55,866 nucleotides of DNA from Sedimentibacter sp. (GTDB taxonomy: Bacteria > Bacillota > Clostridia > Tissierellales > Sedimentibacteraceae): the NCBI GenBank assembly GCA_017995755.1, contig JAGOIH010000003.1, positions 1-55,866 on the forward strand, in the 5' to 3' direction. Position numbers and translations under genes: made by a program. The notes beneath the pieces were generated by a model, which saw nothing but the letters and a program-made list of their open reading frames with translations, ran no database searches and was not told the origin of the DNA. Positions 12,141 through 33,197 of the stretch are shown here, piece by piece. Position 1 is the stretch's first letter, and each line of letters starts with the position of its first letter.

Positions 12141-12157
12141 CCTGACATCCTCCTAAA

Positions 12158-14677: not shown

Positions 14678-14720
14678 TAATTTCACCGCCTTGTTTCTGA
14701 TTGCATTTTCGAATGTTCCT

Positions 14721-17700
14721 TTATATTTTAGCAAGAATGTCTAATTTCTTGCCATCCTGCCCTGTTTGAACTTTATCATAATTAACTTTAACGCCATCAT
14801 CTAAATCAATTTCTATACGGCTAAGAGCTATATGGGCAATTTTCTCATCATATTCTTTTGTTTCTTTAAGCTGTTTTACAAGTTTTTCTTTACGTTTTTC
14901 TGCCTTTGCAACTTCACGAACTTGTGTACTGTTTTCAATTGTATCTTGCATACGATCGATTTCATTCATGTAAATTTTCTGCATTTTATGAAGATAATCT
15001 ACACGTACAATTCCTGTTGTATCGGCATTATAACGGTGCATGTATATAAGAGCTTTGAATCCATCTTGTTTGCCACTGTCATATAACCAATATATTGGAC
15101 ACTTTTTATAAACTTTTATATGGTCTTTATAAAAATCTTTTACAAAATAATTACGAATAATCTCTCTTGATGTACTACTTTTATTTCCTAATGCTTTTGC
15201 AATAAAATCAAGGTTCTCTTCAAGAGTTTCAGCTCCATATACTTTCTTTACAAATGCGACAAATAATCCAACAATATCATCTTTAAAATATTCTTCGTCG
15301 GTAATCGGAATAACATTATCATTGTCAGGTATAAAAGTAGTATATTTACTATCATCCCATTCACCACCTGCGTAAGCAAGGCCTTCTGCATCAAGTGAAT
15401 ATCTTCCGAACATACAGCCAACTGCATAGGATATGAGGCTTTTAATATCTCTTTGTAGGTCTGCCTTGCGGACAGTTACATCCTTATCTTCTACCTCGGG
15501 AGTAAGTTCATCTTGTAAGCCGTATATTTCTATGAAAATATGATTGAGTTTCTCTTCGTTGGCTTTGAGTTTTGCAAATTGTCCTTCTGCATATATCTCC
15601 CATGCTTTGAAAGCTGACGAAATCTTGCATATAGGTTTTGCATTTCCCCAAGCGTAAGCACCAGACATTCTAAATTTGATTAACGGATGAATTTGAAAAT
15701 CCCATGAGTTCTCAAAAGAATCCCAGTCTGCCTTGGATATTGATATGTTAGTTTCAGTTATAGAAACAACATTTTTAGCTATATCGTTATTCTCAATTAT
15801 CGGCAATCTTCCAATATCACCAGCTTGAAAATTAATAGTAGGTGCTAATATTTGTAGGACTTCTAATGAAATCGGTGTATTACAAAACGCTAAATAGTAC
15901 AACACCTTTTCTTTTGTTGTATAAAAAGACATGCCTGCTATGTCGGATAAGTTGTTCTCTTTATATCTAAACGCTGGCTGTCCTGATGTAATTAATGACC
16001 AGGATGCTGAAGGTGAAAACTTCAATTCATCTGGATAATCTTGTACATTTCTACCATCAACTTTAGCATATTCAAAAATTTCTGTTCCTTTGTTTTCCCA
16101 ATTTATTATATAGTCGTTATTACCATACCACTTTCGGAATTCCCCACCCTTATTATATGGAAACCATTTAGCATTAGAGATTACTGCATTATCTGTATTT
16201 TTTGCATTAAAATTACATTTAAAATTTGCAACTTCCCACCACAATCTCAAAAACCTTCCATTATCTCCAGTTTTCATACCATTTCTTACCACTGATAATT
16301 TACCAAGGGAAGTATAATTTTCAAACATCATAACTATTTTTTCGCTCGCCCAATATGCAATCGGCGACCCAGGAATTTTAGAGAAATTTTCTGCATTTGT
16401 TTCATAACAATATTCACATTCTTTATCTTCAATTGCTTCTAATACTTTTTGTTTCTGTACTACCATACCACCCTTAAAATCAGATAACTTAAAGTAAAGT
16501 CCTTTTGCTTTTTCTTGTCCGTTTTTTAGAACAAAGGAACAAATAGGTACAATAGCTTCCTCAAAAGCAGAATATTCCATCTGTATGAGAGTTGTTATCG
16601 ACTTATGGTTAATGATATATTCTCTCAAATTCTCATAGGTTTTTATAAACATCCATACAAATGGTGTCATAAAAGCAGAATATCCATCCTGCCTGCAATA
16701 TCCAAAATTACGATACATAAACACAGAGAACAAATCTCCACTATAAGGCTTATACTCCTCAACTACAAACTTTTTAAGATTACCTTCTAACTTATTCATA
16801 TATGGTGGATTAGTACAAACAACAGTATATTTTTGTGACATAATATGTGCTTGATTTGCAACTTTTAACATTGTCGGCAAAATATTGCTAATCCAATAAT
16901 CGCTATCGATTGTAATCTGTCCGGAAGCATAACAAGTATTTAAATATTCTTTAAACTCATTATAATTTCTATTTTCTATAGATAATAAGCTTCCTATTTC
17001 TTTTGCGTGCATATAAGCATTAACCAGGTATTCACCAACTTCGTTCTGTTCTACATCATAAGTAACACCATCACAGCTAAATCTTTTAATTGTATTAGTT
17101 TCCACAATTACAGAAACGTTGGGTTTAAGTTTCCTAGTCAATAACCTTCTATCATAGCTACGAGCTTTCATCATAACTGCAAAATAGGCAAGCTGATAAG
17201 CACGGTTATCTATATCAAGTCCAAATAGATTGTTTTCAACAATTGCCTGTGCTGCATCTCTATCTACATAGCCACATTCTCTATAAATCTCCATAAGGAT
17301 ATCAAAAGCATATACAAGAATATGTCCGCTTCCCATGCAAGGGTCAAAAAACGTCATCTCTTCAGGGGTAACTTTTTCATTAATATATTGAATTTCACCA
17401 TTTTTAGGTGTCACAAAATATTTTAATTTATCTTGTAATTTGCTGTTTGGATTTCTTTCTATCCAATAACGACCTAGAGAGTTATCCACCATATAACGAA
17501 CAACCCAATCTGTCGTAAATAATTGAGTAGCTGCAGGTATATCGTCCTTTTTAATTGTCCCTTTATAAATATTTATAACCTCATTCTTGCGTTCTTCATT
17601 ATAATATTGATAAAGCCATCCTATAATCTCTACTGCTTCTTTAAAATCTTCTTCATCTATATCATTAACTAAATGATTTACAAGACCGTCCTTATCCGTA

Positions 17701-18296
17701 AAAGAAATATTGAGTAATAATTCTGTATAGTCCAATGTCTTTTCGAAGAGTTCAGGTAGAACCTCATTTAATTTATTACATTGCTTAATAAACAGCATAC
17801 GAAATAATTCATCTAATTTGTTTTCATCTTTTAATTGCATGATTCTGTCTTTTTCATAGGGCGAGAAATCCATATCAGTATCAAAGGGTGTCGTCACCAT
17901 ATCCGGTTCTGACTTTCCCTTTGTTTCACTTGAAAGTACACGGATTCGTGAAGGCAAATAATCATTAACTTCCATAAATCGAATGGCAATTAAGCGATTA
18001 AACCATGTATAAGCAACTTCTTCAATAACAAATTGAAAAGCAGTTTTGTAATCAGATGTACTTTCTTTTTCTTTGATTCTCTTTATTAGAGCATTGCGTT
18101 GCTCAATTTCATGATTTGAAATTTCTGTGGGTTTACCCGTACCAATATCAAAAAATTGCACATTATTTGTAGATATTGGCAATGGTTGTAATATAGTTTT
18201 ATCATTGATACCTATAGTCCCCGCTTTATATGTAATATCACTGATAAGTTTACGTCTGGCCCAAATGGCAAAGTTTTTTATTGCTGTCTTGTTCAT
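14721..18296 (-). CDS. pglX: BREX-1 adenine-specific DNA methyltransferase PglX
   Basis: Methylates the non-palindromic BREX site to mark host DNA, and is also needed for exclusion. The 1191-residue protein has SAM-binding motif I FFDPCMGSGH (316-325) and catalytic motif IV NPPY (496-499), the signature of N6-adenine methyltransferases. Target recognition sequences follow (about 600-900), and the C-terminus ends with a charged helical region. Length is normal for the family and I see no break. AGGAGG lies just before the ATG; 12 nt separate it from brxC. The recognition sequence cannot be read from the protein; methylome data would give it. Confidence 0.96.
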   Translation of the reverse strand: MNKTAIKNFAIWARRKLISDITYKAGTIGINDKTILQPLPISTNNVQFFDIGTGKPTEISNHEIEQRNALIKRIKEKESTSDYKTAFQFVIEEVAYTWFNRLIAIRFMEVNDYLPSRIRVLSSETKGKSEPDMVTTPFDTDMDFSPYEKDRIMQLKDENKLDELFRMLFIKQCNKLNEVLPELFEKTLDYTELLLNISFTDKDGLVNHLVNDIDEEDFKEAVEIIGWLYQYYNEERKNEVINIYKGTIKKDDIPAATQLFTTDWVVRYMVDNSLGRYWIERNPNSKLQDKLKYFVTPKNGEIQYINEKVTPEEMTFFDPCMGSGHILVYAFDILMEIYRECGYVDRDAAQAIVENNLFGLDIDNRAYQLAYFAVMMKARSYDRRLLTRKLKPNVSVIVETNTIKRFSCDGVTYDVEQNEVGEYLVNAYMHAKEIGSLLSIENRNYNEFKEYLNTCYASGQITIDSDYWISNILPTMLKVANQAHIMSQKYTVVCTNPPYMNKLEGNLKKFVVEEYKPYSGDLFSVFMYRNFGYCRQDGYSAFMTPFVWMFIKTYENLREYIINHKSITTLIQMEYSAFEEAIVPICSFVLKNGQEKAKGLYFKLSDFKGGMVVQKQKVLEAIEDKECEYCYETNAENFSKIPGSPIAYWASEKIVMMFENYTSLGKLSVVRNGMKTGDNGRFLRLWWEVANFKCNFNAKNTDNAVISNAKWFPYNKGGEFRKWYGNNDYIINWENKGTEIFEYAKVDGRNVQDYPDELKFSPSASWSLITSGQPAFRYKENNLSDIAGMSFYTTKEKVLYYLAFCNTPISLEVLQILAPTINFQAGDIGRLPIIENNDIAKNVVSITETNISISKADWDSFENSWDFQIHPLIKFRMSGAYAWGNAKPICKISSAFKAWEIYAEGQFAKLKANEEKLNHIFIEIYGLQDELTPEVEDKDVTVRKADLQRDIKSLISYAVGCMFGRYSLDAEGLAYAGGEWDDSKYTTFIPDNDNVIPITDEEYFKDDIVGLFVAFVKKVYGAETLEENLDFIAKALGNKSSTSREIIRNYFVKDFYKDHIKVYKKCPIYWLYDSGKQDGFKALIYMHRYNADTTGIVRVDYLHKMQKIYMNEIDRMQDTIENSTQVREVAKAEKRKEKLVKQLKETKEYDEKIAHIALSRIEIDLDDGVKVNYDKVQTGQDGKKLDILAKI

Positions 18297-18308
18297 TACT
18301 TCCTCCTG

Positions 18309-21300
18309 CTAAAATTCTATGTTTAAAATTGTATCCTCTTTAATATTTTGCTTTAATTTTGCCTTTAAGACTTCAACATAACGGTCTACATCTGCTTCTG
18401 TTTCAATTCTCCAGGTAGCCTCTGAGTTTATTGATTTGATACTTATAGTCTTTTGTACTTTTAATTTCGGCTTAGGTTCAGCAACTTTGCCTGCTCCTGG
18501 TTCAGGTGGCGTTGTCGGTGGTTTAGCTGCTATAATACGTGCTTCTTCTGCACTTATCTCATTAAGCAAGCGAACTTTTAATGCATCTGCTTCAATTTTG
18601 ATGTTTTGTAGAGTGGCTACATTATTACAGCTTTTTGCCTTATCCTTAATTTCTTTAAATCGCTCGTACACCTTTTCGGAAAATACAACTTTACATTCTT
18701 TTCCTTCAAGTTCCTTTACAACACGAGAATGTGCTGCTTCAATAGCAGCAAGTACAGGTTGCTCCATTTTGTCAAGCATTGCATTATAAAGATCTGTATA
18801 ACGCTCAAGCAATTCAGGTATCTTTCTGATTTCACTATATGGAGATGACTTTTTCATAATCCCTTTTATTTCAGCAACCACTGTTTCAATTTCTTTATTG
18901 ACTATAAATGTCTTGCTATCGTCATATATTTTTATCAAGCGTAAACTTCTGTCCCAAATTCCAAGCTGTTCACCAGAAAAGAAAGCTTTTATAGGTTCAT
19001 ACTTTTCTGCAAATTGCAATATTTCATTTAATTTATTATCAACAGTCTTAAAAAATTCTACTGAATATTTAATACCTAATAGATTTATAAGCATAGATTT
19101 TCCATCTTTAACAACATTGAAACCCGGATAGCTTGGTTCGTTTTTGTAATGGATTTCTAACTTTTCAAGATCAGTTTTTAGGTTAGCTGCGTATTGCTGA
19201 AAACTCTTTAATATTGAATCATCTTCATCACTCATAGGTGTTACATTAAACAATTCTTTCATCACTTCTCTTACAGCTTTCTTCTGCTTGTCATTGGCCT
19301 TTTCTCTTTTCTCTGTAAGAAGTTTTTCAAGATATTCTTTACGACTAAGATAGCGGTATACCTCATCCTCTGTCTTGGTTAGTAAAGTTACCACCTCATT
19401 GTTAACAAAGAAAGCTATATCTCCATCTTTAAATAGTTTAGTAATTAGCCACTGAACATCATCTTCTATAAATCCGTATGGTTCTTTTGTAAATCGTTCC
19501 ATTATAGACTTCATGGATGTTTTCACATGTCTTTGGGTGTTCATGCCAATAAAATCTAAGGCATCATTTAAAGCTAATTTATTAGGTGTTTGTTCAGTTC
19601 CACCAATAGAAATCTGATTATTATTTCCTTTCAAAACCGCTCTTATATGAGATTCTCCCATAGCAGTGTCTATATAGTACAATTTATGGTATACCGTATG
19701 TACAAGTTTACCAAGAGCATCATTGATACGCACAGTTATGTCTTTTGATGCATTCTGTATTTTGTCACCATTTGTATATATATTAGCCTCTTTTAACGAC
19801 TCCTCTAAAAAGATTCGAGCATTTGAATTTCTTTCACGCATTTCAACACGTTTTGCTTCTTTGATTTGCTCATACTTTGTTACAACGCTAGATGTATTTA
19901 ATCTCAAATATTTTTCAATTTTTAATGCAGAACGAATCTCATCTATAAATGCTTTATCATCCGGTAGAGCCACAATAACGCATTTACTCTGTCCGCTCAT
20001 CATACGAAGTGTTGTTTCATCTGTACCAAGTTCATAATTTGGTGTTAATACTTTAAGTGAAATATCGTAATTCTGATTTCCCTTATAAGGTCTGTCATCT
20101 ACAATCTGATTATATGCAAAATTATATCTGCCGTTAAATGCAGGATATCTATATTTTTTCTCTGAATATAAGCCATCAAAAATTAACTCTGATACTTTTG
20201 TGATAACTTCAGAAATTTCAACATGTTGACTTTCAATTTCTCTATTAATCTCCTGTTCTTCATCCGTTAAAAATACATATAAGTCACTGGTTTTTTGTAT
20301 AAGCGTTTGACGTACAAGACGTTTTAAAGACTGTTCAACTTTATCTTTTAGTGCAATTCTATCATCATCTATATTAGAGACCATTAAGCTTGTTATGTTC
20401 TCTAAATTAGCTACAATTTCTTTGACATATTTAATCATAAAAAGTGTCTTCAAAACATTGACATCAAAACAATCCTCCAATTTATCAGGATTTAAATATT
20501 CATTATCATAGGCACGAATAATTACACCTTTGTGACTATGATCTAAAAATTGCTCAAGAGCATCATAGAACAGATTGAAAGGAACAATTGTGCCTTCGGG
20601 ATTCTCCATAATTTTCATAGCAGACTCTTTAAATAATGCTAACATAGAGCGTTCACCTTCAGCTAAATGCTTACCACTCGCTCCATGGGTCCTTATTGAA
20701 GTAAGAACACTTGCCAGCAGATTAAATTGATATGGAACGAAAGGGTATACAGCAGAAAAATCATTTCTGTCCGAATATAGTTTCTTTTCTATGCCATCAT
20801 TAAAAATAATAAGGTTTTTGATTATTGTTTCTTTTTCATCGTAAAGAAGTCCTAATGTTTGTCTTCCGGTTTCTGTTTTTTCAAGTATTCTCTTTCTGAT
20901 AACTTCATCCACGTTTGCTGATGACAAGGAAAGCCTTGTATCAAATCTACCTTGAATTTTAGAAAAATCATTTCCCTTTGTTTTTGTAATACTATCAATA
21001 TCCTGCTGACTTGTTACCACAACCCAGGCTTTACCGTGACAGGCAACTCCCAATTCTTCTACCACTGTCTGTAGGTTTAGCATCAATTTTGAATTATCAC
21101 CTATATATTGACCCATTTCATCCACTAAGAAAACAATATGATGATTCTTACTTTTTTTATTTATATATTTTTTAACCATATTTGCAAAGGTTATTATATC
21201 GATATTATAGGTGCCTGTTGAACTTTCACACCAGTTTTTTGCAGCATCCATACTCATATAATTGATTTGAACCAATGCTTTACATACATAGTCTTGAATA

Positions 21301-21914
21301 AATCTAAACTGATGTCTCGAGTCTAACCATTCTTTACCGCGTATTTCAGCAAATGCTTTTTTGAAATCTTCATACTTGCCTTCCTCTGTAAGTTGTCTTT
21401 CTAAATCTGCCAAAAAGGGGTTAGCTCCATAGAACCCTAAGTGTTGATTAAAGACTTTTAAAAACACAGAAAGAATAGCTTCTTTGTTATTCTGAGAATC
21501 GCCCATTCCGCTTTTAGAATCAATATTAAACAATATAACATCACTTGATACATTAGCTGCGAGTTTCATGTCTGCAAGAACCATTTCATTTTTTATCTTT
21601 TTATCCTCGATAAAATAATCAATTGCTGTTTTTCCATCAACAACTCGATTTTCCAGTAGGTAGGATAGTATTTTTAAGAAATGTGATTTACCACTTCCAA
21701 AGAAGCCGGAAATCCAAACTCCCATTGCATCTGTATTTCCAATAATTCCCCTTTTATAACTGGAGAAAAAATCAGCAAAGTGTTTTTGCAGCTCTCTTGT
21801 TACTACATATTCTTCAAGCTCCTGCTTTACATTTTCATCATCACCTTGTCCAACTTTAATAACACCTTTTATATTTCTGTCAATTGGTTTAGCAAACATA
21901 TTCTTAATATACAT
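18309..21914 (-). CDS. brxC: BREX P-loop ATPase BrxC
   Basis: Large ATPase (1201 residues) of the BREX core, related to PglY. The N-terminal AAA+ domain has Walker A ISGFFGSGKSHFLK (68-81) and the Walker B stretch HHIVFLVDEMGQYIG (about residues 261-275). A long helical middle and C-terminal region with a proline-rich linker (PPTTPPEPGAGK) is followed by a short terminal domain. Length is normal and the frame is intact. AGGTGGAGG precedes the ATG; the gap to brxB is 13 nt. BrxC is required for both methylation and phage blocking in studied systems. Confidence 0.95.
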   Translation of the reverse strand: MYIKNMFAKPIDRNIKGVIKVGQGDDENVKQELEEYVVTRELQKHFADFFSSYKRGIIGNTDAMGVWISGFFGSGKSHFLKILSYLLENRVVDGKTAIDYFIEDKKIKNEMVLADMKLAANVSSDVILFNIDSKSGMGDSQNNKEAILSVFLKVFNQHLGFYGANPFLADLERQLTEEGKYEDFKKAFAEIRGKEWLDSRHQFRFIQDYVCKALVQINYMSMDAAKNWCESSTGTYNIDIITFANMVKKYINKKSKNHHIVFLVDEMGQYIGDNSKLMLNLQTVVEELGVACHGKAWVVVTSQQDIDSITKTKGNDFSKIQGRFDTRLSLSSANVDEVIRKRILEKTETGRQTLGLLYDEKETIIKNLIIFNDGIEKKLYSDRNDFSAVYPFVPYQFNLLASVLTSIRTHGASGKHLAEGERSMLALFKESAMKIMENPEGTIVPFNLFYDALEQFLDHSHKGVIIRAYDNEYLNPDKLEDCFDVNVLKTLFMIKYVKEIVANLENITSLMVSNIDDDRIALKDKVEQSLKRLVRQTLIQKTSDLYVFLTDEEQEINREIESQHVEISEVITKVSELIFDGLYSEKKYRYPAFNGRYNFAYNQIVDDRPYKGNQNYDISLKVLTPNYELGTDETTLRMMSGQSKCVIVALPDDKAFIDEIRSALKIEKYLRLNTSSVVTKYEQIKEAKRVEMRERNSNARIFLEESLKEANIYTNGDKIQNASKDITVRINDALGKLVHTVYHKLYYIDTAMGESHIRAVLKGNNNQISIGGTEQTPNKLALNDALDFIGMNTQRHVKTSMKSIMERFTKEPYGFIEDDVQWLITKLFKDGDIAFFVNNEVVTLLTKTEDEVYRYLSRKEYLEKLLTEKREKANDKQKKAVREVMKELFNVTPMSDEDDSILKSFQQYAANLKTDLEKLEIHYKNEPSYPGFNVVKDGKSMLINLLGIKYSVEFFKTVDNKLNEILQFAEKYEPIKAFFSGEQLGIWDRSLRLIKIYDDSKTFIVNKEIETVVAEIKGIMKKSSPYSEIRKIPELLERYTDLYNAMLDKMEQPVLAAIEAAHSRVVKELEGKECKVVFSEKVYERFKEIKDKAKSCNNVATLQNIKIEADALKVRLLNEISAEEARIIAAKPPTTPPEPGAGKVAEPKPKLKVQKTISIKSINSEATWRIETEADVDRYVEVLKAKLKQNIKEDTILNIEF

Positions 21915-21927
21915 AATCCTCCACCTC

Positions 21928-22512
21928 TCAATCTACGAGCTTAAATGCTCTGTAATAGTTATCATCTTTAATTTCAGAAAAAAGCATCAATGATTGACCA
22001 TCATACTTTCCGGGAAAAAACATTACCACTGGAACTTCATCTATAAATTGGTGTAAATTGTTTAGAACCTTATGTGAACGCAAAATAGGAAAACACTTCC
22101 CTACACCTGTTAAAAATATAATTGAATCCTTTGGTGTATTATTCTTAATATGAGCTAATATTTCATTACTTTGGTTATCTTCTTCCATACGAAGCAGCTC
22201 ATTGACTGATATTGTTACCTCTTGAAAACCTTTAGTCTTTTCAAAATCTTCACAAATTTCTAAAAAGCCTTCTTGTATCAACAAATCTATAATAATATCA
22301 TATAAATCAAAAACAACTATCTTGAAATCATGAACATTTTTTTCATACTTTGATTCAAGATATCGCACTCTTTCTCTCACAATGAGCTCTTGCTCTGCTG
22401 GATAATCAAATACATAATAACCTACTTCATTGCCAAGACCTTTGTTTTTTCTGAAATTCGGTTGTTTTATCTTTTCTTCTAACTCATTAAGCCTGCTCTC
22501 TAAATTACGCAC
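21928..22512 (-). CDS. brxB: BREX protein BrxB (DUF1788)
   Basis: Small core BREX protein, 194 residues, DUF1788. It begins NLESRLNELEEKIKQPNF, then NEVGYYVFDYPAEQE, and IIFLTGVGKCFPILRSHKVL with PVVMFFPGKYDGQSL near the end, typical of the family. The start is GTG 22512, directly after the brxA stop, with AGGGGGG inside the brxA end serving as RBS. Known work shows BrxB interacts with other BREX subunits; it has no clear enzymatic motif. Confidence 0.95.
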   Translation of the reverse strand: MRNLESRLNELEEKIKQPNFRKNKGLGNEVGYYVFDYPAEQELIVRERVRYLESKYEKNVHDFKIVVFDLYDIIIDLLIQEGFLEICEDFEKTKGFQEVTISVNELLRMEEDNQSNEILAHIKNNTPKDSIIFLTGVGKCFPILRSHKVLNNLHQFIDEVPVVMFFPGKYDGQSLMLFSEIKDDNYYRAFKLVD

Positions 22513-23109
22513 TTAATCTGTCCCCCCTATAGCTTTTAACATCTGTTTTTCGCCATTTTCTTTAAGATAATTTTCCAATGAAATATCTAATATCGGCGGT
22601 GTGATTCTTTTTTGGTTGTCTATTACGGTTAAAAGTCCGGCATCTTTTAAAAAGTTCATATATGTACTGCTAAGTCTTTTTAAAGTCGCATCCGTCCATT
22701 TGCTGATATCTTCATCTTGCTCCTGTTTATTTTTAAAAAATATGCTAATGTCACTATCTGTAAGCTCTATATCGCCTAACAGTGCCTTTTCCCTATATAG
22801 TTCATATAAAAACTCAAAAAACAATTTATTTTTCTTTGCTATTGCAATAATATTTATTACTTTCTGTGTTGTTAAATCTGCATTAATAAATATATTTATT
22901 AGTCCTTCATCAAGTACATCGACTCGACTTTTTAAATATCCATAAATTCGTTTTGCTCTATACTCTTTTGAAATACCAAGTAAGTTATCATTTAAACATA
23001 AATCTCTGATATCATCCCAAGATTTACCGTCATATTTTAATTTTATAATCTTTTTAAATTCAATAAACCAGAAAGACTCTGATACAAGTCCCGAACTATA
23101 TTTCTCCAT
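22513..23109 (-). CDS. brxA: BREX protein BrxA (DUF1819)
   Basis: First gene of the BREX operon, 198 residues, DUF1819. Recognisable by the N-terminal segment LVSESFWFIEFKKIIKL, followed by YRAKRIYGYLKSRVDVL and a winged-helix-like C-terminus (SSTYMNFLKDAGLLT). Studied BrxA proteins are small helical DNA-binding proteins. The ATG has GGAGG 7 nt upstream. A 368-bp region without genes precedes it, with a plausible promoter near 23.22-23.25 kb, so BREX expression probably starts here. Confidence 0.95.
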   Translation of the reverse strand: MEKYSSGLVSESFWFIEFKKIIKLKYDGKSWDDIRDLCLNDNLLGISKEYRAKRIYGYLKSRVDVLDEGLINIFINADLTTQKVINIIAIAKKNKLFFEFLYELYREKALLGDIELTDSDISIFFKNKQEQDEDISKWTDATLKRLSSTYMNFLKDAGLLTVIDNQKRITPPILDISLENYLKENGEKQMLKAIGGTD

Positions 23110-23477: not shown

Positions 23478-23909
23478 TTAATATCCTCTTAAATTATGTA
23501 ATGAAGTGCTTAATTCTTCATTTTTCTTTATAAAATTTTGCAGATAAGTTTCTGTGACTATAAACTGTTGATTTCCATCTTTAATCCGAGTTTTTGTAGC
23601 TAACACTTGTTCACCGTTACTTGTTATTTGAAAGCTATGAACTATTCGATTTCTCATAATCACAAGTTCATCAAATAGATTTGCTATTGATTCATCAGTT
23701 TTTTGAGTAATTGTATTTTTTATTGGTAATGTAAGTTTTCCCGATTCTAAGTCTATCAAGTGATACCAATTATATTGACTATTGTCATCCAAACGCAATG
23801 TGTTTTCTATAATAAATGCATTATTCGAATTAAATACGCACAGTGCACTTCCCAACAATTCTCGATATCTTTTTGAAGGCAATGCTTGCCTTGTATAATT
23901 TTCATACAT
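23478..23909 (-). CDS. Small protein with HEPN-type RNxxxH motif
   Basis: Protein of 143 residues, family not recognised with certainty. It begins with YTRQALPSKRYRELLGSALC and carries FDELVIMRNRIVHSFQI (R86, N87, H91), which matches the RNxxxH motif of HEPN-domain RNases within a predicted helix. HEPN domains are about this size and are common in defence islands and toxin-antitoxin pairs. No obvious antitoxin (MNT) gene is next to it. The ATG has GAGGT about 8 nt upstream. It is separate from BREX by 368 bp and may be transcribed on its own. It could also be a non-catalytic member. Confidence 0.6.
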   Translation of the reverse strand: MYENYTRQALPSKRYRELLGSALCVFNSNNAFIIENTLRLDDNSQYNWYHLIDLESGKLTLPIKNTITQKTDESIANLFDELVIMRNRIVHSFQITSNGEQVLATKTRIKDGNQQFIVTETYLQNFIKKNEELSTSLHNLRGY

Positions 23910-24221: not shown

Positions 24222-24731
24222 TCATTGAAAATACTTTTCTTTCAAACCATAAAGTGTTAGCACAATTATTAGTTCTTCACGATATTTTCTTTGATTTCCA
24301 TTGCTAGGGAACGGAAGAAAAAATATGTTATTTCCAACTTGGTAGGTATGCATAATGTCAGAATCCCTAATTTTCGGCTCAACTAAAGTTTTTTTACAAA
24401 CAATAATTATCTTAGGAGATTCTTGTTTTATGAAACTTTCTAATTCAGGAATATTTTCCTGAATAGTACTTCTCCTTTCTTCATTACTTAAATAATTTAC
24501 TGGATTTTCACAAATATCGTATAGCCAACAACCCCATAGTTTAAATTTGTCTAATTTAAATATATCTTGATCAAAGTATTTGTCAAAAGCCTTTTTTGTC
24601 TCTTTATATAGTGCAGAATCCCCTTGATAAAAAAATGTTCCTCCTTTCGGTCTTGATTCTCCAACAAACAAAACCTCAATATTATCAGGCTTATAAGTAT
24701 TTCTTAAATTTTCAAAATTATTATTTTTCAT
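24222..24731 (-). CDS. Uracil-DNA-glycosylase-superfamily-like protein
   Basis: Protein of 169 residues from ATG 24731 (a GTG at 24743 would add 4). Near the N-terminus it has IEVLFVGESRPKGGTFFYQG, like motif 1 of the UDG superfamily (vGe.Pg...yqG), and near the C-terminus FFLPFPSNGNQRKYREE, at the place of the 'hPS.lN/r' motif 2. A central KIIIVCKKT strand fits the fold. Such proteins sit in many defence islands; the substrate is unknown, and the lack of canonical catalytic residues could mean DNA binding or another base. The family call comes from motif shape only. Confidence 0.55.
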   Translation of the reverse strand: MKNNNFENLRNTYKPDNIEVLFVGESRPKGGTFFYQGDSALYKETKKAFDKYFDQDIFKLDKFKLWGCWLYDICENPVNYLSNEERRSTIQENIPELESFIKQESPKIIIVCKKTLVEPKIRDSDIMHTYQVGNNIFFLPFPSNGNQRKYREELIIVLTLYGLKEKYFQ

Positions 24732-24851
24732 ATTCCTCACCACTCATTATTATTTTTTCAAATGTTAAAAATTAATAAATTTACATTATCCGAGTCAAAT
24801 ACCTCTTTTGAAATATTTGGTAGACATTGTTATATATTCAACATAATCGCT

Positions 24852-26496: not shown

Positions 26497-26713
26497 TCAC
26501 ACTCTTTTATACATTTCCTTTAATAATGTTTTTTCACCCCACTCATAATAAATCGAACGTAATTCATTATCAAGATAAGTAAGTGCCTTTTCTTTTATAT
26601 CCTCCGGAACTCCATAATACGCTTCTGCAATAGCCCCTGTAATTGCTGCTAATGTATTTCTGTCTCCCCAAAGCTGTTATAGAGCTTGGGATTATCACTG
26701 AAGCCCCAGCGTC
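26497..26713 (-). pseudogene. Remnant of a second ADP-ribosylglycohydrolase (DraG)
   Basis: The minus strand reads GRWGFSDNPKLYNSFG, then a deletion and frame change, then GDRNTLAAITGAIAEAYYGV and PEDIKEKALTYLDNE to a TGA at 26497-26499. These match two separated blocks of the intact DraG gene at 28.8-29.6 kb (GWGISNSLEPYNSWG and GGDSDTLACITGGIAEAYY). The start and the middle third are gone. It is a degraded paralogue, not a functional gene. Confidence 0.75.
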
Positions 26714-26829
26714 CAAACATTCCACCATATCAAAAATCTCCCTTCAATTTTTAATCCTGCAATGCTTTCTTTTGAAAATATCTTCGTGTCATCCGGGTCA
26801 AATTCTCTTTTGACATTCTTGTTAGGCAT
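26695..26829 (-). pseudogene. 5' fragment of a DUF434 gene fused to DraG debris
   Basis: A 44-codon frame starting at ATG 26829 reads NKNVKREFDPDDTKIFSKES then IAGLKIEG, nearly the first 28 residues of the intact DUF434 protein at 24.9-25.6 kb. It then runs out of frame into the DraG remnant and stops at 26695. The start overlaps the stop of the DUF2779 gene by 8 bp, which suggests that a DUF2779-DUF434 overlap was the original operon arrangement. Confidence 0.7.
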
Positions 26830-28774
26830 CATGAATCATATCCTTCCACCCCTCATAAATCATTACCATTGCCAAGGTATCCAGCTCGCAGTATTTAAGA
26901 AGGGCTTTTTGTACTTCGCTTCGTTCATAGTCTGACATTTCGGTAAACTGAAGCATTGCATAGGCGGTCATAGCTGCGCCGCCGTCTCTTAATTGGTCAT
27001 TACTAAGGAGTATAAAATCCTTGTCTGATACATCCTCAAACATTTTAGGCAGGAGCTTGTAGGGGTCTGTAACCATATTGTTTTCAAATTTAACCCATGT
27101 CCAATCCTTGTAGTTTAAGCTTGGGATATTTTGTGTTCCGTAAATGGGTTTGGAATACTTGTCCTTAAGGAATCCGGAGCTGTTTAAAAGGGCAGGAAGC
27201 ACTGCCTTGATTGAATTTGAGCCTTTCATTGCAGGGTCATAATAGTATTTCTTGACAAGCTCGCACATATCAACCATGCTGCGATTACCTTCCCATTTTT
27301 CACTATTGCCACCTACTGATTTAGTAATGCTTCTTATAAATTCGCACATGTCTTCCCTATCTGGAATATCGTTTTTATCTTCCTTTAATTGTCTGTAAAT
27401 CATATTCAAATATGAATTCTCATGGGCGGCATATCTAAAGATTGTCCCATTATCATGGTCTAAATCCGCCTTTAATTTTCTCACAAAATCATAGTTTGGA
27501 AATACTCCGGGCTCAGTATTTAAATATTGTCCACGATGCTCAATATCTCCATTTTCTCCGACGATATGGTGGGAAAATTGAAAAGCGATTCCCTCATAGG
27601 GTCTTCTACCCTTATTAAATGGAATGGCAGCCATGGATGTTTCAAAATCAATAAAATGAAGAGGATAGGTCCATGAATTTATTTCCAATGATAAATTATC
27701 CTTGTCAATCCAATATGTAGTATCTTTATTCTGTACTTTTTTTATTTGCAGTAGCTGCCTTTCCGTAGTTGAAATCCCCGGTCTGTCAGAAGGTTTAAGA
27801 TTTATATCATCTTCAGTTATTTCCGTCAGCTTGATACGCCCTTGGGATATCAGTTTGTCTGTGCCTCTAAAATTCCATATGTCAAGTACGGTTCCCTCTT
27901 CAAAATCCTTGTCTGTCCATCCAAGCATCTCTTTCCAGCATTCATGAAAGCCGCTTTTATAACCTGCTTTCATATCATCATCAGTTGCTTTAAATTCACA
28001 GCCCTTGCAGTTTTTGCTTATACCGGACTTTATTTTTAGGTCCTTATGGTAGTTCTCGGCAAATATATTTATCAGTTCAGAAAAACTAAGAGTATTATTT
28101 TGGTATTCATAATCATAACTGTAAATCATCCTGCATGCATCGTCTGTGTCTATTTTACACAATATGGGCTGTGACAGGTCCTCTTCAGACAAACTTTCTG
28201 ATACCATTATCCTTTTCCTGCCCTTTTCTTCTATAATCCTGAATTTTTGGTTCAATCCATCTGTAGGGCATTTGGCATCCTTGTCAGCCAGCATTAAATA
28301 AGCTGTAACCTTATAATCAGGGAATGCCTTGCAGACTACATGCTTCTGAAAGGCAACATCCAAAAGATAGGGTTTCCATTCAGCTTTGATGCCGCTCTTA
28401 TTATAAAAGTCACCAGAAGATTTAGCTTTAACTTCAATGAGTTCAATGTTTCTGCCGTTTTTTATCAATATGTCCGTCCGTATAAAGAAATTTCCGTATG
28501 TAACAGCAGCTTCATATATTATTACCTTATCTCTCAATAAAAGCTCATTTGTCTGTCTTAAAGCTTCACCGTAATCTAAGGTTTCAATATCGTATCCTCC
28601 CGCAAAGTAATGCTTTGCAAGCTCCCCTACCTGAAACCCTCCCTCAGCCAAAGCAAGAAGAAAGGAATCATCTATATTTTGATTTATGTACTCGTCCTTG
28701 CCTGTATAGAAAAGCTTGGTCGGGCATTCCATTGCAAGCTTGAACCTTGATTTAGTCAGGTATCTCTTTGACAT
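26822..28774 (-). CDS. DUF2779 protein: Cas4/RecB-like nuclease fused to DnaQ-like exonuclease
   Basis: Putative two-domain nuclease, 650 residues. The N-terminal half looks like a Cas4/RecB-type nuclease: FKLAMECPTKLFY (C17), D101 in RTDIL, IELIEVKAK (E114, K116), and a cysteine group KNCKGCEF...FHECW (C256, C259, C279), which with C17 makes a possible Fe-S site. The C-terminal half begins LHFIDFETS (D376, E378) and ends YCELDTLAM (D632), the DEDD pattern of RNase-H-fold 3'-5' exonucleases. GAGGGG lies 7 nt before the ATG. It is downstream of DraG and upstream of DUF434 debris. DUF2779 assignment is firm; the nuclease reading comes from motifs. Confidence 0.82.
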   Translation of the reverse strand: MSKRYLTKSRFKLAMECPTKLFYTGKDEYINQNIDDSFLLALAEGGFQVGELAKHYFAGGYDIETLDYGEALRQTNELLLRDKVIIYEAAVTYGNFFIRTDILIKNGRNIELIEVKAKSSGDFYNKSGIKAEWKPYLLDVAFQKHVVCKAFPDYKVTAYLMLADKDAKCPTDGLNQKFRIIEEKGRKRIMVSESLSEEDLSQPILCKIDTDDACRMIYSYDYEYQNNTLSFSELINIFAENYHKDLKIKSGISKNCKGCEFKATDDDMKAGYKSGFHECWKEMLGWTDKDFEEGTVLDIWNFRGTDKLISQGRIKLTEITEDDINLKPSDRPGISTTERQLLQIKKVQNKDTTYWIDKDNLSLEINSWTYPLHFIDFETSMAAIPFNKGRRPYEGIAFQFSHHIVGENGDIEHRGQYLNTEPGVFPNYDFVRKLKADLDHDNGTIFRYAAHENSYLNMIYRQLKEDKNDIPDREDMCEFIRSITKSVGGNSEKWEGNRSMVDMCELVKKYYYDPAMKGSNSIKAVLPALLNSSGFLKDKYSKPIYGTQNIPSLNYKDWTWVKFENNMVTDPYKLLPKMFEDVSDKDFILLSNDQLRDGGAAMTAYAMLQFTEMSDYERSEVQKALLKYCELDTLAMVMIYEGWKDMIHDA

Positions 28775-28816
28775 TTTCTATCCCCTCGTGTGTTGCTTAA
28801 AATAGTTCAATCCTTC

Positions 28817-29578
28817 TCATTTTTCATATAATTTATTAACTAAATCCATCATTTCCTGTGGCAGTATTCTTTCAACTTCCGATAAAATGCTGTCAGGGAT
28901 TTCTTTGTAATAAGCTTCGGCAATGCCTCCTGTTATGCAGGCAAGAGTATCGCTGTCTCCACCGATTGATATGGCATTTCTTATAGCATCTTCAAAATCA
29001 TTAGATTCTAAAAATGCGATGATTGCGGGCGGGACTGTTCCATGGCGGGAAACATCAAAATCATACCATTTTCTGATGCTGTCCAAGCTTTCACTCAAAT
29101 CATAGCCAAATCTTTTTTCAATAAACTCTTTGATTTCCTGCTTTTCTTTGTTATTTTTAGCTAAATAAATTGCTGCAGCTGTTGCATGAGCTCCTTTTAT
29201 GCCTTCTGGATGGTTGTGTGTTACTGCTGAACTTTCTTCAGCTTTCAAAAGAACTTCATCTAAATTATCGTAATAATAACCTACAGGACTGACTCTCATG
29301 GCAGACCCGTTCCCCCAGCTGTTGTATGGTTCCAGGCTGTTTGATATTCCCCAGCCCATAAAATTACCGCCATAACCCCTGTCGGGATATTTTCTGAACC
29401 ATTTTTTATAGCTATCGGCAAATGGCATATCGTTTATTATTGAGTCAATTGTTGCTATTGTCATAACCGTATCATCTGTAAAATCAGATTCTTTTGTAAA
29501 TAATTCAAATTCCTTTTGCTTGATATTGTTCCATTCAAAAACAGAACCCACAATATCTCCTGTAATTGCTCCTATCAA
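28817..29578 (-). CDS. ADP-ribosylglycohydrolase family protein (DraG-like)
   Basis: Enzyme of 253 residues predicted to remove ADP-ribose from proteins or nucleic acid. It has the family start MIGAITGDIVGSVFEW, the metal-binding TDDTVM (34-39), NSWGNGSAMR, THNHPEGIKGA and the second metal motif GGDSDTLACITGGIAEAYY. All metal ligands are present, so it is likely active with Mg2+. In defence contexts such enzymes can reverse ADP-ribosylation toxins. A 64-bp copy of its 3' end lies at 32.14-32.20 kb and a broken paralogue at 26.5-26.7 kb. Confidence 0.9.
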   Translation of the reverse strand: MIGAITGDIVGSVFEWNNIKQKEFELFTKESDFTDDTVMTIATIDSIINDMPFADSYKKWFRKYPDRGYGGNFMGWGISNSLEPYNSWGNGSAMRVSPVGYYYDNLDEVLLKAEESSAVTHNHPEGIKGAHATAAAIYLAKNNKEKQEIKEFIEKRFGYDLSESLDSIRKWYDFDVSRHGTVPPAIIAFLESNDFEDAIRNAISIGGDSDTLACITGGIAEAYYKEIPDSILSEVERILPQEMMDLVNKLYEK

Positions 29579-29795
29579 TCAATTCACCTTCTTTCTTTAT
29601 AATGATTAATAGTATAGATTAAAATTCCTCGACAAGGTCGCTTACATTGCGACATTTTCTATCCCCCTGTCCTGTTAAAGCTCTGCAAGCTTGACAACTA
29701 CATCCATCAAGACATTTGCATCTACGGCTAAATCAATTTTGATATCCCTTTACAACCTCATCTAAATGCTTAATAAAAGGATAAAGATTATATTT
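29579..29795. other. Junk junction: DUF2779-type leader, unknown tail, WYL 3' end copy
   Basis: On the minus strand, 29777-29740 encodes the last residues of the WYL protein (FIKHLDEVVKGYQ), followed by an open stretch IDLAVDANVLMDVVVKLAEL ending in TAA. Next comes GGGGGATAGAAAATGTC (29667-29651), nearly the ribosome site and start of the DUF2779 gene, which then diverges. It is a patchwork of gene ends and starts without a gene of its own. Confidence 0.6.
29740..29777. repeat. 38-bp direct repeat, copy A (WYL 3' end)
   Basis: The sequence starting TGATATCCCTTTACAACC is identical over 38 bp to 32201-32238, where it is the coding 3' end of the WYL gene. The two copies, in the same orientation, bracket the MBL and PD-(D/E)XK genes. 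Confidence 0.9.
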
Positions 29796-31094
29796 TTATA
29801 TACTGAAAGTATTTCCATCTTTTATAAGAACAACTTTATCTGAAATGCCAGTAAAAGCATCCGGATTCATAGTATGAACCGGTACAATCTGTTTTGGATT
29901 TAATTCTGATATGACTCTTTGAATATCAGATACTGATGCATGTCCGCTTGTATGGAGTTCATCTAACGCAAATCCTGTATTTTTCAGATAATCCTCAAAA
30001 GTTTTTTGGTAATCGCTATAACGGTATCCACTCCACATTGAATACAAAAACAGACCATTATGGAGTCCTGCTATTTCAATATCCCTTTTCATTGAAGGGC
30101 GTACAGTCATAACAATGCTGTTCTGTTCCTCTTTCAGCTTTTCTTTAGATATATAAAATGGTGAAAACCGCTTAGCATAATCTTTCCCAATTTCGTCAAA
30201 AATCTTCTGTGTAATCCTATGAGGATAAAACACTTTAATATTTTTATATTGTTCAGACGGATAAGGCAGCCGATTATTCCCAAGTTGTTTGAGCTCATAT
30301 AGTACATTAGCTGTGTAGATATCAATGACAAAGATTCTGCCAAGTCTCGTTGCAGCCTTGTAAAAACTCACAATTCTGTCAATATTCTGACTCGATGATT
30401 GAAACAGCACCGGACCATTGAATTTATCCATTTTATTAATAATCTGTTTTTCAAGTTCTTGCTCAGTTAAAACTTTTTCGTCCTGTCTCCCCAGCATAGT
30501 TCCTTCAGTAATAAGTACATCTGTACCTTTTTTTGATTTGTTGATAAACATATCAAGACAGACTATTTTTCTTCCGTGTCCGCGAAAATCTCCAGTATAG
30601 ATAACAGTTTTCTCATTATCGGATATCTCAAAAGCTGCAGCGTCGAAGGCCGAATGATCCATCAGAAAAGGCATAATTCTAAAGCAGCCGATTTTAAACG
30701 GCTCATACATTGAAAACTCATTAAACGCTGCAGAAATTTCTTCAGTAAGTTTAAATAATACTGATATATCTATTAACATTTTAGTACCCTTTGATAAATA
30801 AACAGGTATAGCAGGATTAACAAATTTCAACAACCCATAATGATCTATATGCGCATGTGATATAATTACTGCATCAAAAGCAGGCGAATCCCAGGCATAT
30901 AGTCCTTTAACATTTGGAAGCACACCAAGTTTCAGGAGTTTTTCATGACTTAAAGCTGATACTGAATTATCAATAGGCTGATTATTTAAAAACAGCGGAT
31001 AACCGGCATCAATGAGTATTCTGCTATTTCTTGATTTAATCTCAATGAGTGTGCCGCCAATTTCATGAGTACCTCTATAAATTATGATATCCAT
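29796..31094 (-). CDS. MBL-fold beta-CASP-like hydrolase (RNase J-like)
   Basis: Putative metal-dependent nuclease of 432 residues. It has RILIDAGYPLF, the zinc motif SHAHIDH (H80, H82, D84, H85), FLMDHSAFDAAAF, YTGDFRGHGR, and late motifs HTSGHAS and VPVHTMNPDAF. This order and spacing match beta-CASP/RNase J-type enzymes, although the protein is shorter than RNase J and has no C-terminal RNA-binding domain. It starts 9 nt after the stop of the PD-(D/E)XK gene (GAGG before ATG), so the two form an operon. I infer RNA or DNA cleavage; a small-molecule hydrolase is a weaker alternative. Confidence 0.8.
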   Translation of the reverse strand: MDIIIYRGTHEIGGTLIEIKSRNSRILIDAGYPLFLNNQPIDNSVSALSHEKLLKLGVLPNVKGLYAWDSPAFDAVIISHAHIDHYGLLKFVNPAIPVYLSKGTKMLIDISVLFKLTEEISAAFNEFSMYEPFKIGCFRIMPFLMDHSAFDAAAFEISDNEKTVIYTGDFRGHGRKIVCLDMFINKSKKGTDVLITEGTMLGRQDEKVLTEQELEKQIINKMDKFNGPVLFQSSSQNIDRIVSFYKAATRLGRIFVIDIYTANVLYELKQLGNNRLPYPSEQYKNIKVFYPHRITQKIFDEIGKDYAKRFSPFYISKEKLKEEQNSIVMTVRPSMKRDIEIAGLHNGLFLYSMWSGYRYSDYQKTFEDYLKNTGFALDELHTSGHASVSDIQRVISELNPKQIVPVHTMNPDAFTGISDKVVLIKDGNTFSI

Positions 31095-31103
31095 TTGTTT
31101 CCT

Positions 31104-32111
31104 CTACTGATTTAATGATGAATCAATTCTAATAATTTGATTGTCTTTCTCTTGGAAATATATATAGTGGAGACTGATAATATCACCCCCGACTTGAATT
31201 TCCTTGTTTGCAAAAGAATAATCATTACCTTTATCTGATGGCATTGCACAAGCAGCCAATATGGTTATTTTTTTTGGAATTTGTTTGCTGAAGCCAAAAA
31301 GCTTCCACCAATCGTTTCCTGATTCACTGCGAAGCAGCTCACGAATAAAAGCAGCATAAGCTACTGCCTGTTTTACCACATCGATTGCCGGTTCTTTAGG
31401 ATTATTCTCATCTTTCAATTCTATGACACATAATTTTGCTGAGCTTCCTGATTTACCGACTCTTGCGAAAATATCAATTCCGCCGCCATATGCCTTGGAA
31501 TATTTGACTGATTTATGATAACTTGCGCTTATAGGTGTTGGCATTGGGAATCTAATGCCTCCGATTTTAACAGGTTGTATGTATTTCAAGGCTTTTCCGG
31601 TTGATTGTTGTTTTGAAAACTCTGATAACAACAAACTTTCAATTCTGTGCTCCTCATTACGTTTGGAAGTAATTTCAATTCTTTGTGGATGTTTTTTAAA
31701 ATAAGCCCTAAATTCTTTCGCTTCCTTACCACGCCAATCAACCATATTCAAACTTTTATGCCAGTCAAAATATTTTGCATTCTTTACATTGTATTTTTTT
31801 GTATTTAAAAGTGGCGTATTACTCTTTGATTTATCGAAAATCAACTCAGCAACCTCTTGTCCAATATAACGAACACCAAGAGACAAATAATTTGATGCCT
31901 TTTTAGCATTGCTTACATTTAAATAAAATTTTAAAGGTGCCCATTCACGAAATGAGCTTCGTGCCTGTTTGATTTCATCCAAATTTTGCATAATTATTTT
32001 TGCATACTCATGATAACGGCTAACCCATTCATTATTTTTGCTAACTAATTGTAGTACCTCGGAAACCACGTTATTGAATTCTTTTAATTGAATATCATTT
32101 TTTATTCCCAT
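31104..32111 (-). CDS. PD-(D/E)XK-type restriction-endonuclease-like protein
   Basis: Protein of 335 residues. The C-terminal third has YGGGIDIFARV (D213), then KLCVIELKDENNP (E231, K233), the D...ExK nuclease core, followed by a helix with QAVAYAAFIRELL. The N-terminal 150 residues are helical and unknown. Start: an ATG at 32141 forms an ATGA overlap with the copied DraG stop, but ATG 32111 has GAGGGCGG 8 nt upstream and is preferred. With the MBL gene 9 nt downstream it makes a two-gene module just after the WYL regulator. Specific substrate unknown. Confidence 0.72.
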   Translation of the reverse strand: MGIKNDIQLKEFNNVVSEVLQLVSKNNEWVSRYHEYAKIIMQNLDEIKQARSSFREWAPLKFYLNVSNAKKASNYLSLGVRYIGQEVAELIFDKSKSNTPLLNTKKYNVKNAKYFDWHKSLNMVDWRGKEAKEFRAYFKKHPQRIEITSKRNEEHRIESLLLSEFSKQQSTGKALKYIQPVKIGGIRFPMPTPISASYHKSVKYSKAYGGGIDIFARVGKSGSSAKLCVIELKDENNPKEPAIDVVKQAVAYAAFIRELLRSESGNDWWKLFGFSKQIPKKITILAACAMPSDKGNDYSFANKEIQVGGDIISLHYIYFQEKDNQIIRIDSSLNQ

Positions 32112-32140
32112 AAGATTTTCCGCCCTCATGATTATAATCA

Positions 32141-32204
32141 TTTTACATATAATTTATTAATTAAATCCTTCATTTCCTGTGGCAGTATTATGTCAACTTC
32201 TGAT
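32141..32204. repeat. 64-bp copy of the DraG gene 3' end
   Basis: About 57 of 64 bp match 28821-28884. On the minus strand it encodes EVDIILPQEMKDLINKLYVK and a stop, compared with EVERILPQEMMDLVNKLYEK in the intact DraG gene. It is joined directly to the last codons of the WYL gene, so the current WYL C-terminus (QKLT) is read from DraG sequence. Confidence 0.85.
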
Positions 32205-33171
32205 ATCCCTTTACAACCTCATCTAAATGCTTAATAAACAGTTCTGTAACGTTTTCCGGCGAAACAATTTTAACCTTGTTTCCAAACTGAAAAATCCACC
32301 CCAAAAATGGAGGGCTTACTTCAACCTTCAATATTGCAATAAAAGAGTTTTCATCAGCCTTATAAGTTACGGTGTCTTTCCCGAACCTGTCTATGACCAC
32401 GCCTAACAGCGAATTGTCGAATTGAATTCTAACTGTTTCTTCTTCACCTGAATACATGCTGAATATTTTCTTTGTATATTCAACGATATCTATATCTTCC
32501 TTGTGGCAGTCAAAGTCAATAATTTCAATGTCTTCCATCTTGTCCACCCTGAAATGGGTTATGCCCTTATATTTTTCGTAGTAGGAAATCATATAATAAT
32601 TTTCATTGTCCCAGGTCAGGGCGTAGGGACTTGCTGTGTAATTGTTCCCTTCATTTCTGTATCTTTTTTTCTTATCTATTGTGAATTCAAAGTATTTGAA
32701 TGAAATTTGTTTTTTGCTGTTTATTGCCTGATTAATTATGTCAACATTGTAGTAGATTTTTTCATTCATGGTTTTTACTCTGCCGGCTACAATAATCTGT
32801 CTTGCCAGCTGTTTTGCTTCATGGCTGCTGGTCAGGCTGCCGATTTTCTTAATTAATTGTCTGGATTTCTTCTCAGTAATGAATTTTGATGAGGCTACAG
32901 CGTCTGCGAGGAGTTTTACTTCTGCCAGTTCAAAGGTTCTGCCGGCAATATAGTAGTCATAGGTCTTTGATTTTTTGCACAGGATATCAATCCCAAAGGT
33001 TTTTAGAGACTCGATGTCATCATAAATGCTTTTTCTTTCAGCACTTATGCCGTATGTATTTAATTCTAGAATCATTTCTTGAACTGTCAGTGTGTGGTTA
33101 GTATCTGTTTTTTCCATTAGGATCTTCAACAGATATAATAGTTTTAGCTTTTGATTTGACTTTTTAGACAT
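32188..33171 (-). CDS. WYL-domain transcriptional regulator
   Basis: DNA-binding regulator of 327 residues: N-terminal winged helix (LYLLKILMEKTDTNHTLTVQ then YDDIESLKTFG) followed by a WYL domain (KKISFKYFEF, SPYALTWDNENYYMISYY, FRVDKMEDIEI) and a WCX-type C-terminal domain (VRIQFDNSLLGVVIDRFG). WYL proteins commonly control defence islands, BREX included. Start: ATG 33171 with GAGGGGG 6 nt upstream is preferred over ATG 33186. The 8-bp inverted repeat over its own -10 suggests autoregulation. It is probably the regulator of the genes downstream on the same strand. Confidence 0.88.
   Translation of the reverse strand: MSKKSNQKLKLLYLLKILMEKTDTNHTLTVQEMILELNTYGISAERKSIYDDIESLKTFGIDILCKKSKTYDYYIAGRTFELAEVKLLADAVASSKFITEKKSRQLIKKIGSLTSSHEAKQLARQIIVAGRVKTMNEKIYYNVDIINQAINSKKQISFKYFEFTIDKKKRYRNEGNNYTASPYALTWDNENYYMISYYEKYKGITHFRVDKMEDIEIIDFDCHKEDIDIVEYTKKIFSMYSGEEETVRIQFDNSLLGVVIDRFGKDTVTYKADENSFIAILKVEVSPPFLGWIFQFGNKVKIVSPENVTELFIKHLDEVVKGYQKLT
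32201..32238. repeat. 38-bp direct repeat, copy B (inside WYL gene)
   Basis: Identical to 29740-29777. Together the copies flank a 2.4-kb block with the PD-(D/E)XK and MBL genes and the DraG tail. Confidence 0.9.
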
Positions 33172-33197
33172 GAGTTTCCCCCTCATTATCTAGATAT

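Follow-up and report, generated by a model that had tools for sequence, protein, structure and literature searches.

A stretch of Sedimentibacter sp. DNA (the window; 55,866 nucleotides, contig JAGOIH010000003.1 of assembly GCA_017995755.1) carries two adjacent genes that represent, judged by comparison of their sequences with relatives, a modular two-gene system. One member is a constant beta-CASP enzyme of the metallo-beta-lactamase (MBL) fold, and the other is a nuclease belonging to one of four divergent groups. In the window, both genes lie on the minus strand: a PD-(D/E)XK-like nuclease gene of type F (31104-32141; 345 aa), whose motif residues are assigned by homology, and an RNase J-like MBL gene (29796-31094; 432 aa) that matches Pfam Lactamase_B_2 and RMMBL as well as TIGR00649. 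We propose that the pair is a nuclease system that travels as a cassette, and consider it fairly probable that its role is defence against phages or plasmids. An earlier note on this DNA had predicted that one gene encodes a beta-CASP MBL and the other a PD-(D/E)XK nuclease, and these identities were supported.

The pair recurs well beyond the window. Chromosomal samples consisted of genomes from the window's phylum, and plasmids, phages and viral contigs were searched in addition. Two more genomes of the genus, G016 and G014, encode homologues of the window nuclease, and in both an MBL gene comes immediately next. The MBL proved to be the better probe. Full-length MBL relatives occur on alphaproteobacterial and Cupriavidus plasmids (32-34% identity; E = 1e-57 to 1e-70, tblastn), and a profile built from the plasmid relatives and three genus members recovered further members from Bacillota genomes and from plasmids of Pseudomonadota. 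This profile detected the MBL in 8 further genomes of a phylum sample of 398 (9/398 with the window's own genome) and, own genome included, in 13 of the 341 genomes of a second sample. Order and class samples added G060, G071, G660, G868, G740, G828, G934 and G770, among others. Viral contigs yielded no relatives of the MBL or the nuclease, and plasmids and phages yielded none of the window nuclease. In plasmid searches made with nuclease queries (2/2), the matched records all carry the MBL too.

Among 29 assessable loci, those in which both sides of the MBL can be read, 26 have a nuclease-like gene no further than one gene from it (19/20 chromosomal and 7/9 plasmid); L081, L085 and L087, too near a contig edge, were left out. 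The two genes usually share a strand and either overlap or are no more than about 20 bp apart; 18 of the 21 measured pairs are separated by no more than 30 bp, with 8 of these 18 overlapping. The earlier note had taken the pair never occurring together elsewhere as grounds for abandoning its proposal; instead, the pair recurs in other genomes and on plasmids, far more widely than had been guessed. A PD-(D/E)XK core pattern fits 19 of the 21 partner open reading frames (ORFs) versus 0 of the 298 remaining ORFs of these loci, a contrast that is descriptive, as the pattern was composed after the partners had been read. The window genes have rearranged surroundings that include several gene fragments, which might suggest that they are chance neighbours. 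Recurrence in so many loci of unrelated genomes, and the failure of every other ORF to fit the core pattern, make this vanishingly improbable, and at the level of gene adjacency chance is already refuted.

Other genes are sometimes found alongside the pair. A helix-turn-helix gene stands beside it in four loci (L082 6711-7310; L084 8720-9376; L086 8527-9267; L056 10066-10722) and is possibly a dedicated regulator. In G014 (L009 6329-9528), the nuclease and MBL genes are followed, after about 15 bp, by a gene for a DraG-like ADP-ribosylglycohydrolase, in the same order as in the window. DraG was considered as a third member and kept as a lead only: the window and G014 DraGs are 26% identical, and the arrangement is present in no other locus.

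Evidence for modularity comes from the way in which the two members associate. In a blind all-against-all clustering, the MBL was present in 28 loci, the nucleases fell into groups of 8, 7, 6 and 5 loci, and WYL genes formed a cluster covering 5. The four nuclease groups have little or no mutual similarity. Between the window and G414, which belongs to a different family of the same phylum, the MBLs are 70% identical and the nucleases are unrelated by BLAST; similarly, G660 and G740 combine MBLs that are 83% identical with unrelated nucleases. The reverse pattern is seen between the window and G014, members of one genus, which share 46% identity in the nuclease and 31% in the MBL. DNA similarity between partner-swapped loci ends at the MBL gene boundary. 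Because similar MBLs have unrelated nucleases as neighbours and the DNA match does not extend past the MBL edge, the system can be described as modular with swappable nucleases, and, as far as such comparisons reach, the nuclease groups have demonstrably been exchanged at that boundary.

The exchange is extensive. On a maximum-likelihood MBL tree, nuclease group requires at least 10 changes, against a mean of 12 (range 9-15) for shuffled labels; in other words, the MBL tree predicts nuclease group hardly better than shuffled labels do. An example is provided by G868 and G934, two genomes of one genus whose loci are 98% identical (L083 8732-9613 versus L089). In G868, a second nuclease gene is inserted between the first nuclease gene and the MBL, a difference that evidently reflects the natural gain or loss of a nuclease partner. 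G770, from the same genus, has a third kind of nuclease beside a broken MBL.

The constant member has what its residues mark as a complete RNase-type active site: D29, H80xH82xD84H85, H147, D169, E197 (motif A), H385 (motif B) and H407 (motif C). The RNase J-type motifs 1-4 and A-C are all invariant in 8 aligned MBL homologues. Motif C is a histidine (His407) in 8/8 aligned family members, the RNA-type state; a histidine at this position marks RNA-processing beta-CASP members (PMC3095777), and this rule is not absolute (PMC7458816). The closest solved structures by sequence are 2az4 (EF2904; E = 4e-40) and then RNase J, and the characterised enzymes most closely related to it belong to RNase J rather than to SNM1 or ComEC. 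The window MBL scores 77.9 bits against the TIGR00649 RNase J family, below the curated cut-off of 400, and has no match in PADLOC.

These properties bear on the alternative that the pair is a DNA-degrading machine, in which the PD-(D/E)XK protein would nick or cut invader DNA and the MBL would digest the ends as an exonuclease, either like SNM1 or like the MBL nucleases of nuclease-protease pairs. MBL-fold DNases are known in bacterial immunity (PMC12799240). A motif C of the RNA type in every aligned MBL, together with a closer relationship to RNase J than to SNM1 or ComEC, argues against such an activity, and we consider this alternative unlikely.

The PD-(D/E)XK fold of the partner is likely, not proven. 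In the window nuclease, whose true start is perhaps at 32111 (MGIKND...), the core residues E168, D223, E241-x-K243 and Q258 are invariant in four to five homologues. The predicted order of secondary structure elements fits the alpha-beta-beta-beta-alpha-beta PD-(D/E)XK fold, in a model of low confidence (predicted local distance difference test score, pLDDT, of 46). This structure model, predicted from two sequences, was too poor to serve for anything but that order, and its PDB fold search, being uninformative, was discarded. The window nuclease has no family in Pfam or NCBIfam, and in PADLOC it matches only PDC-S11 (6e-5) and HEC-01A (0.0075), both weakly. One partner from another locus matches Pfam PDDEXK_9 (E = 1.6e-4), with weak matches to NERD and HSDR_N among the others. 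Two of the nuclease groups match over the catalytic core in a profile-profile comparison (P = 5e-4), and the plasmid partners escaped a plain hidden Markov model search that started from the window nuclease. As the profile comparison matched the core only, the groups are treated here as divergent rather than as one family. Weak Pfam matches (TetR-C_39, TelA, BAAT and similar) were set aside as chance. The G016 nuclease (L011 391-1980) is extended at its N-terminus by a domain of about 195 aa, for which Pfam gives only a weak chaperone-like match.

Genomic context makes defence against invaders the likeliest role of the pair. In the window, the setting is a bacteriophage exclusion (BREX) locus. 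Elsewhere, a window nuclease homologue in an Oscillospiraceae contig (L006) adjoins a type I restriction-modification gene, a type II/IIG restriction-modification system lies near L035, a CRISPR array lies near L056, and WYL genes occur in 5 loci. Plasmid carriage and sparse distribution were also counted in favour of defence. Several observations weigh against it. About half of the loci show no recognised defence system nearby, their neighbours being ordinary or mobile-element genes. Three MBL loci lack the nuclease (L039, L040 and L088, where the MBL is truncated), and the MBL is missing next to two genes of the nuclease group, namely that of L006 and that of G508, which stands in a WYL-headed gene row. 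Furthermore, the fold assignment, likely as it is, draws on motifs and weak profile matches, and the structure model is poor.

Several loci among ordinary genes (L053, L055 and L058) would suit a role in cell maintenance, such as RNA processing or DNA repair, with presence in islands being incidental. Relatives among RNase J and SNM1 are housekeeping enzymes, and a more distant MBL of the EF2904 type is found in an ABC-transporter operon without a nuclease. Nevertheless, a maintenance gene would hardly be expected to show the sparse distribution of the MBL in the two genome samples, its carriage by plasmids and its near-random exchange of partners, nor to be 70% identical to the MBL of another family versus 31% to that of G014 within the genus; we give cell maintenance only a small chance. 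The overlapping or adjacent arrangement of two genes, plasmid carriage and exchange of partners are also typical of toxin-antidote or plasmid-maintenance modules, in which one protein restrains the other. Against such a module, both genes appear to encode enzymes with intact catalytic residues, and each can be found without the other (nuclease-group genes in L006 and G508, the MBL in L039 and L040), so that this explanation is distinctly improbable.

The two proteins are probably made together and act together; joint production is suggested by the short spacing and gene overlaps. If the pair does serve in defence, the nuclease, with its variable N-terminal half, would be the sensing or specificity part that recognises and cuts invader DNA. 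The MBL would be the shared effector, degrading either RNA, whether transcripts of the phage or of the host, or nucleic acid exposed by the nuclease. In the window, the pair would be stored in the WYL-headed front of the BREX locus as an accessory effector layer. A bolder proposal, which we put forward tentatively and at lower odds than a defence role as such, is that the MBL could be a universal effector served by interchangeable PD-(D/E)XK sensor-nucleases, so that cleavage of DNA is linked to destruction of RNA and partners are swapped, one gene at a time, as phages counter them. This would constitute an undescribed class of modular prokaryotic immunity.

Confirmation would establish a compact two-gene system in which a single enzyme is combined with four or more kinds of nuclease, and nuclease swaps could show whether phage specificity tracks the nuclease and the mode of killing tracks the MBL. 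An RNA-type beta-CASP enzyme would then join the immune effectors outside CRISPR, and protein groups whose sole annotation is 'MBL fold metallo-hydrolase' or 'hypothetical protein' would gain a function.

The arrangement of the window locus, with gene order read on the minus (coding) strand, bears on how the pair was acquired. At the head of the island is a WYL-domain regulator (32188-33186, minus; Pfam WYL and WCX, PADLOC WYL), followed by a copy of the 3' end of DraG at the right junction (32138-32205, minus) and then by the pair. To the left of the pair are a copy of the WYL 3' end (29737-29777, minus), a copy of the ribosome-binding and start region of a DUF2779 gene, GGGGATAGAAAATGTC (29651-29666, minus), the intact DraG-like gene (28817-29578, minus; PF03747, ADP_ribosyl_GH, E = 1e-39) and the DUF2779 gene itself (26822-28774, minus; PF11074), the ancestral neighbour of WYL. 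The repeat search confirmed the direct WYL repeat that the earlier note had described as 38 bp and flanking the two genes: 29737-29777 and 32198-32238 are 98% identical over 41 bp, with the last 38 bp exact, and bracket the nuclease and MBL genes. It likewise recovered the DraG 3'-end copy at the right junction, with 28817-28884 and 32138-32205 being 91% identical over 68 bp (64 bp in the earlier note). A chance origin of repeats so long and similar within 10 kb is discounted.

At the right junction, WYL is fused to the DraG 3' end at a microhomology common to both, TATC..GAAGTTGA, which has altered the WYL C-terminus to KGYQKLT in place of KGYQN. The left copy keeps the older WYL C-terminus, FIKHLDEVVKGYQN-stop, and is followed by a spacer and then by the copy of the DUF2779 start region upstream of DraG. 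This copy is an exact repeat of 28770-28785, and the two 16-bp sequences bracket DraG. A relative of the same genus, G013 (L025), has the closest WYL (92% identical over 331 aa) and a DUF2779 gene that is 86% identical; the two are separated by 24 bp, with no DraG, nuclease or MBL in between. Because WYL is followed directly by DUF2779 in this relative, DraG and the nuclease-MBL pair both evidently represent insertions between WYL and DUF2779, at the head of the BREX locus, and the copy at 29651-29666 is to all appearances a remnant of the old WYL-DUF2779 junction. The earlier note was thus right that the two genes form an inserted cassette and wrong that the ancestral locus was WYL-DraG: the empty junction is WYL-DUF2779, and DraG is itself inserted within its 16-bp bracket.

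Insertion probably involved duplication of the WYL 3' end and DraG, and a microhomology deletion. In the simplest history that fits the junctions, DraG would have entered at the DUF2779 start. Duplication of the segment from the WYL end through DraG would then have left the nuclease-MBL pair flanked by the two copies, and finally a microhomology deletion, with loss of most of one DraG, would have joined WYL to the terminal part of the first DraG copy. A circular intermediate gives the same junctions, and either a duplicated or a circular piece fits them. The region around the pair is prone to rearrangement, as indicated by gene debris at 26530-26829 (minus), where a copy of a DUF434 start (35 codons, 66%) is fused to two DraG fragments. 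These are 80-90% identical to the DraGs of relatives and only about 45% to the intact DraG of the window.

Downstream of the WYL and pair region is a complete type 1 BREX locus (10071-23109, minus), missed in the earlier note, in which PADLOC hits identify all six genes together (6/6: brxA, brxB, brxC, pglX, pglZ and brxL). The nuclease-MBL pair is inside the WYL-headed island and is not part of the BREX core genes. WYL regulators of the BrxR kind are known to head BREX regions (PMC9122601). The position of the pair directly downstream of WYL, as the earlier note had it, is real, and a Butyrivibrio plasmid also has the order WYL-nuclease-MBL; closeness to the window WYL may nonetheless be incidental, given that the surroundings belong to type 1 BREX. 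Just upstream of brxA, a 143-aa protein (23478-23909, minus) has an RNRIVH motif reminiscent of HEPN RNases and no Pfam or PADLOC match. Downstream of brxL, a 721-aa ATPase-like protein (7867-10029, minus) matches PDC-S06, a candidate for phage defence in PADLOC (E = 7e-190). Also inside the island, 24222-24743 (minus) has a weak match to the uracil-DNA glycosylase superfamily (E = 0.015), and in G508 another gene resembling uracil-DNA glycosylase (L010 10391-11215) overlaps the related nuclease gene.

The earlier note knew of no named system with this composition, and none was found in Pfam, NCBIfam, PADLOC or the literature searched. No such MBL-nuclease pair is described in those three databases, and full-text searches for beta-CASP or MBL enzymes with PD-(D/E)XK nucleases in defence returned only Cas14, the MBL-trypsin pairs and surveys silent on the pair; subscription literature was mostly outside their scope, and an earlier description is possible. 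Like RNase J (TIGR00649), the window-type MBL has an MBL core with a beta-CASP insertion, all catalytic motifs and an RNA-type motif C. It differs in being about 400-430 aa long, versus about 555 for RNase J, in its score (78 versus 400 bits), in its accessory distribution and in its adjacent nuclease gene. EF2904 of Enterococcus faecalis (2az4, function unknown) is of equal length and the closest solved structure by sequence, but is only about 24% identical to the window MBL, and the EF2904-type gene has no nuclease neighbour.

Among defence systems, Shedu (SduA) and the auxiliary or backup restriction endonucleases of BREX (PMC12839542) are PD-(D/E)XK nucleases with a variable N-terminal half, as the window nuclease is predicted to be, and are sometimes found inside BREX. 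Shedu is described without an MBL partner in that survey, the text of which never mentions MBL or lactamase, and the window nuclease does not match SduA (DUF4263) in Pfam or PADLOC. Cas14 of type VII CRISPR-Cas is also a beta-CASP enzyme, and acts as an immune RNA-cutting effector (PMC10910872). In contrast to the window MBL, it has Cas7, Cas5 and a guide RNA as partners (PMC10910872); no Cas5, Cas7 or CRISPR array was found beside the MBL among the window ORFs examined, and the MBL scores weakly against the Cas14 model (29.5 bits against 800). The pairs of MBL nuclease and trypsin protease in Hachiman, AVAST, Lamassu and DRT (HamM; PMC12799240) likewise combine an MBL-fold enzyme with a partner gene and have been repeatedly acquired by different loci. 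Their MBL is ComEC-like and their partner is a fused protease (PMC12799240), and Pfam detects no peptidase domain in the window neighbours. The window MBL is instead RNase J-like, and the gene beside it encodes a PD-(D/E)XK-like nuclease, a partner that is exchanged in its own right.

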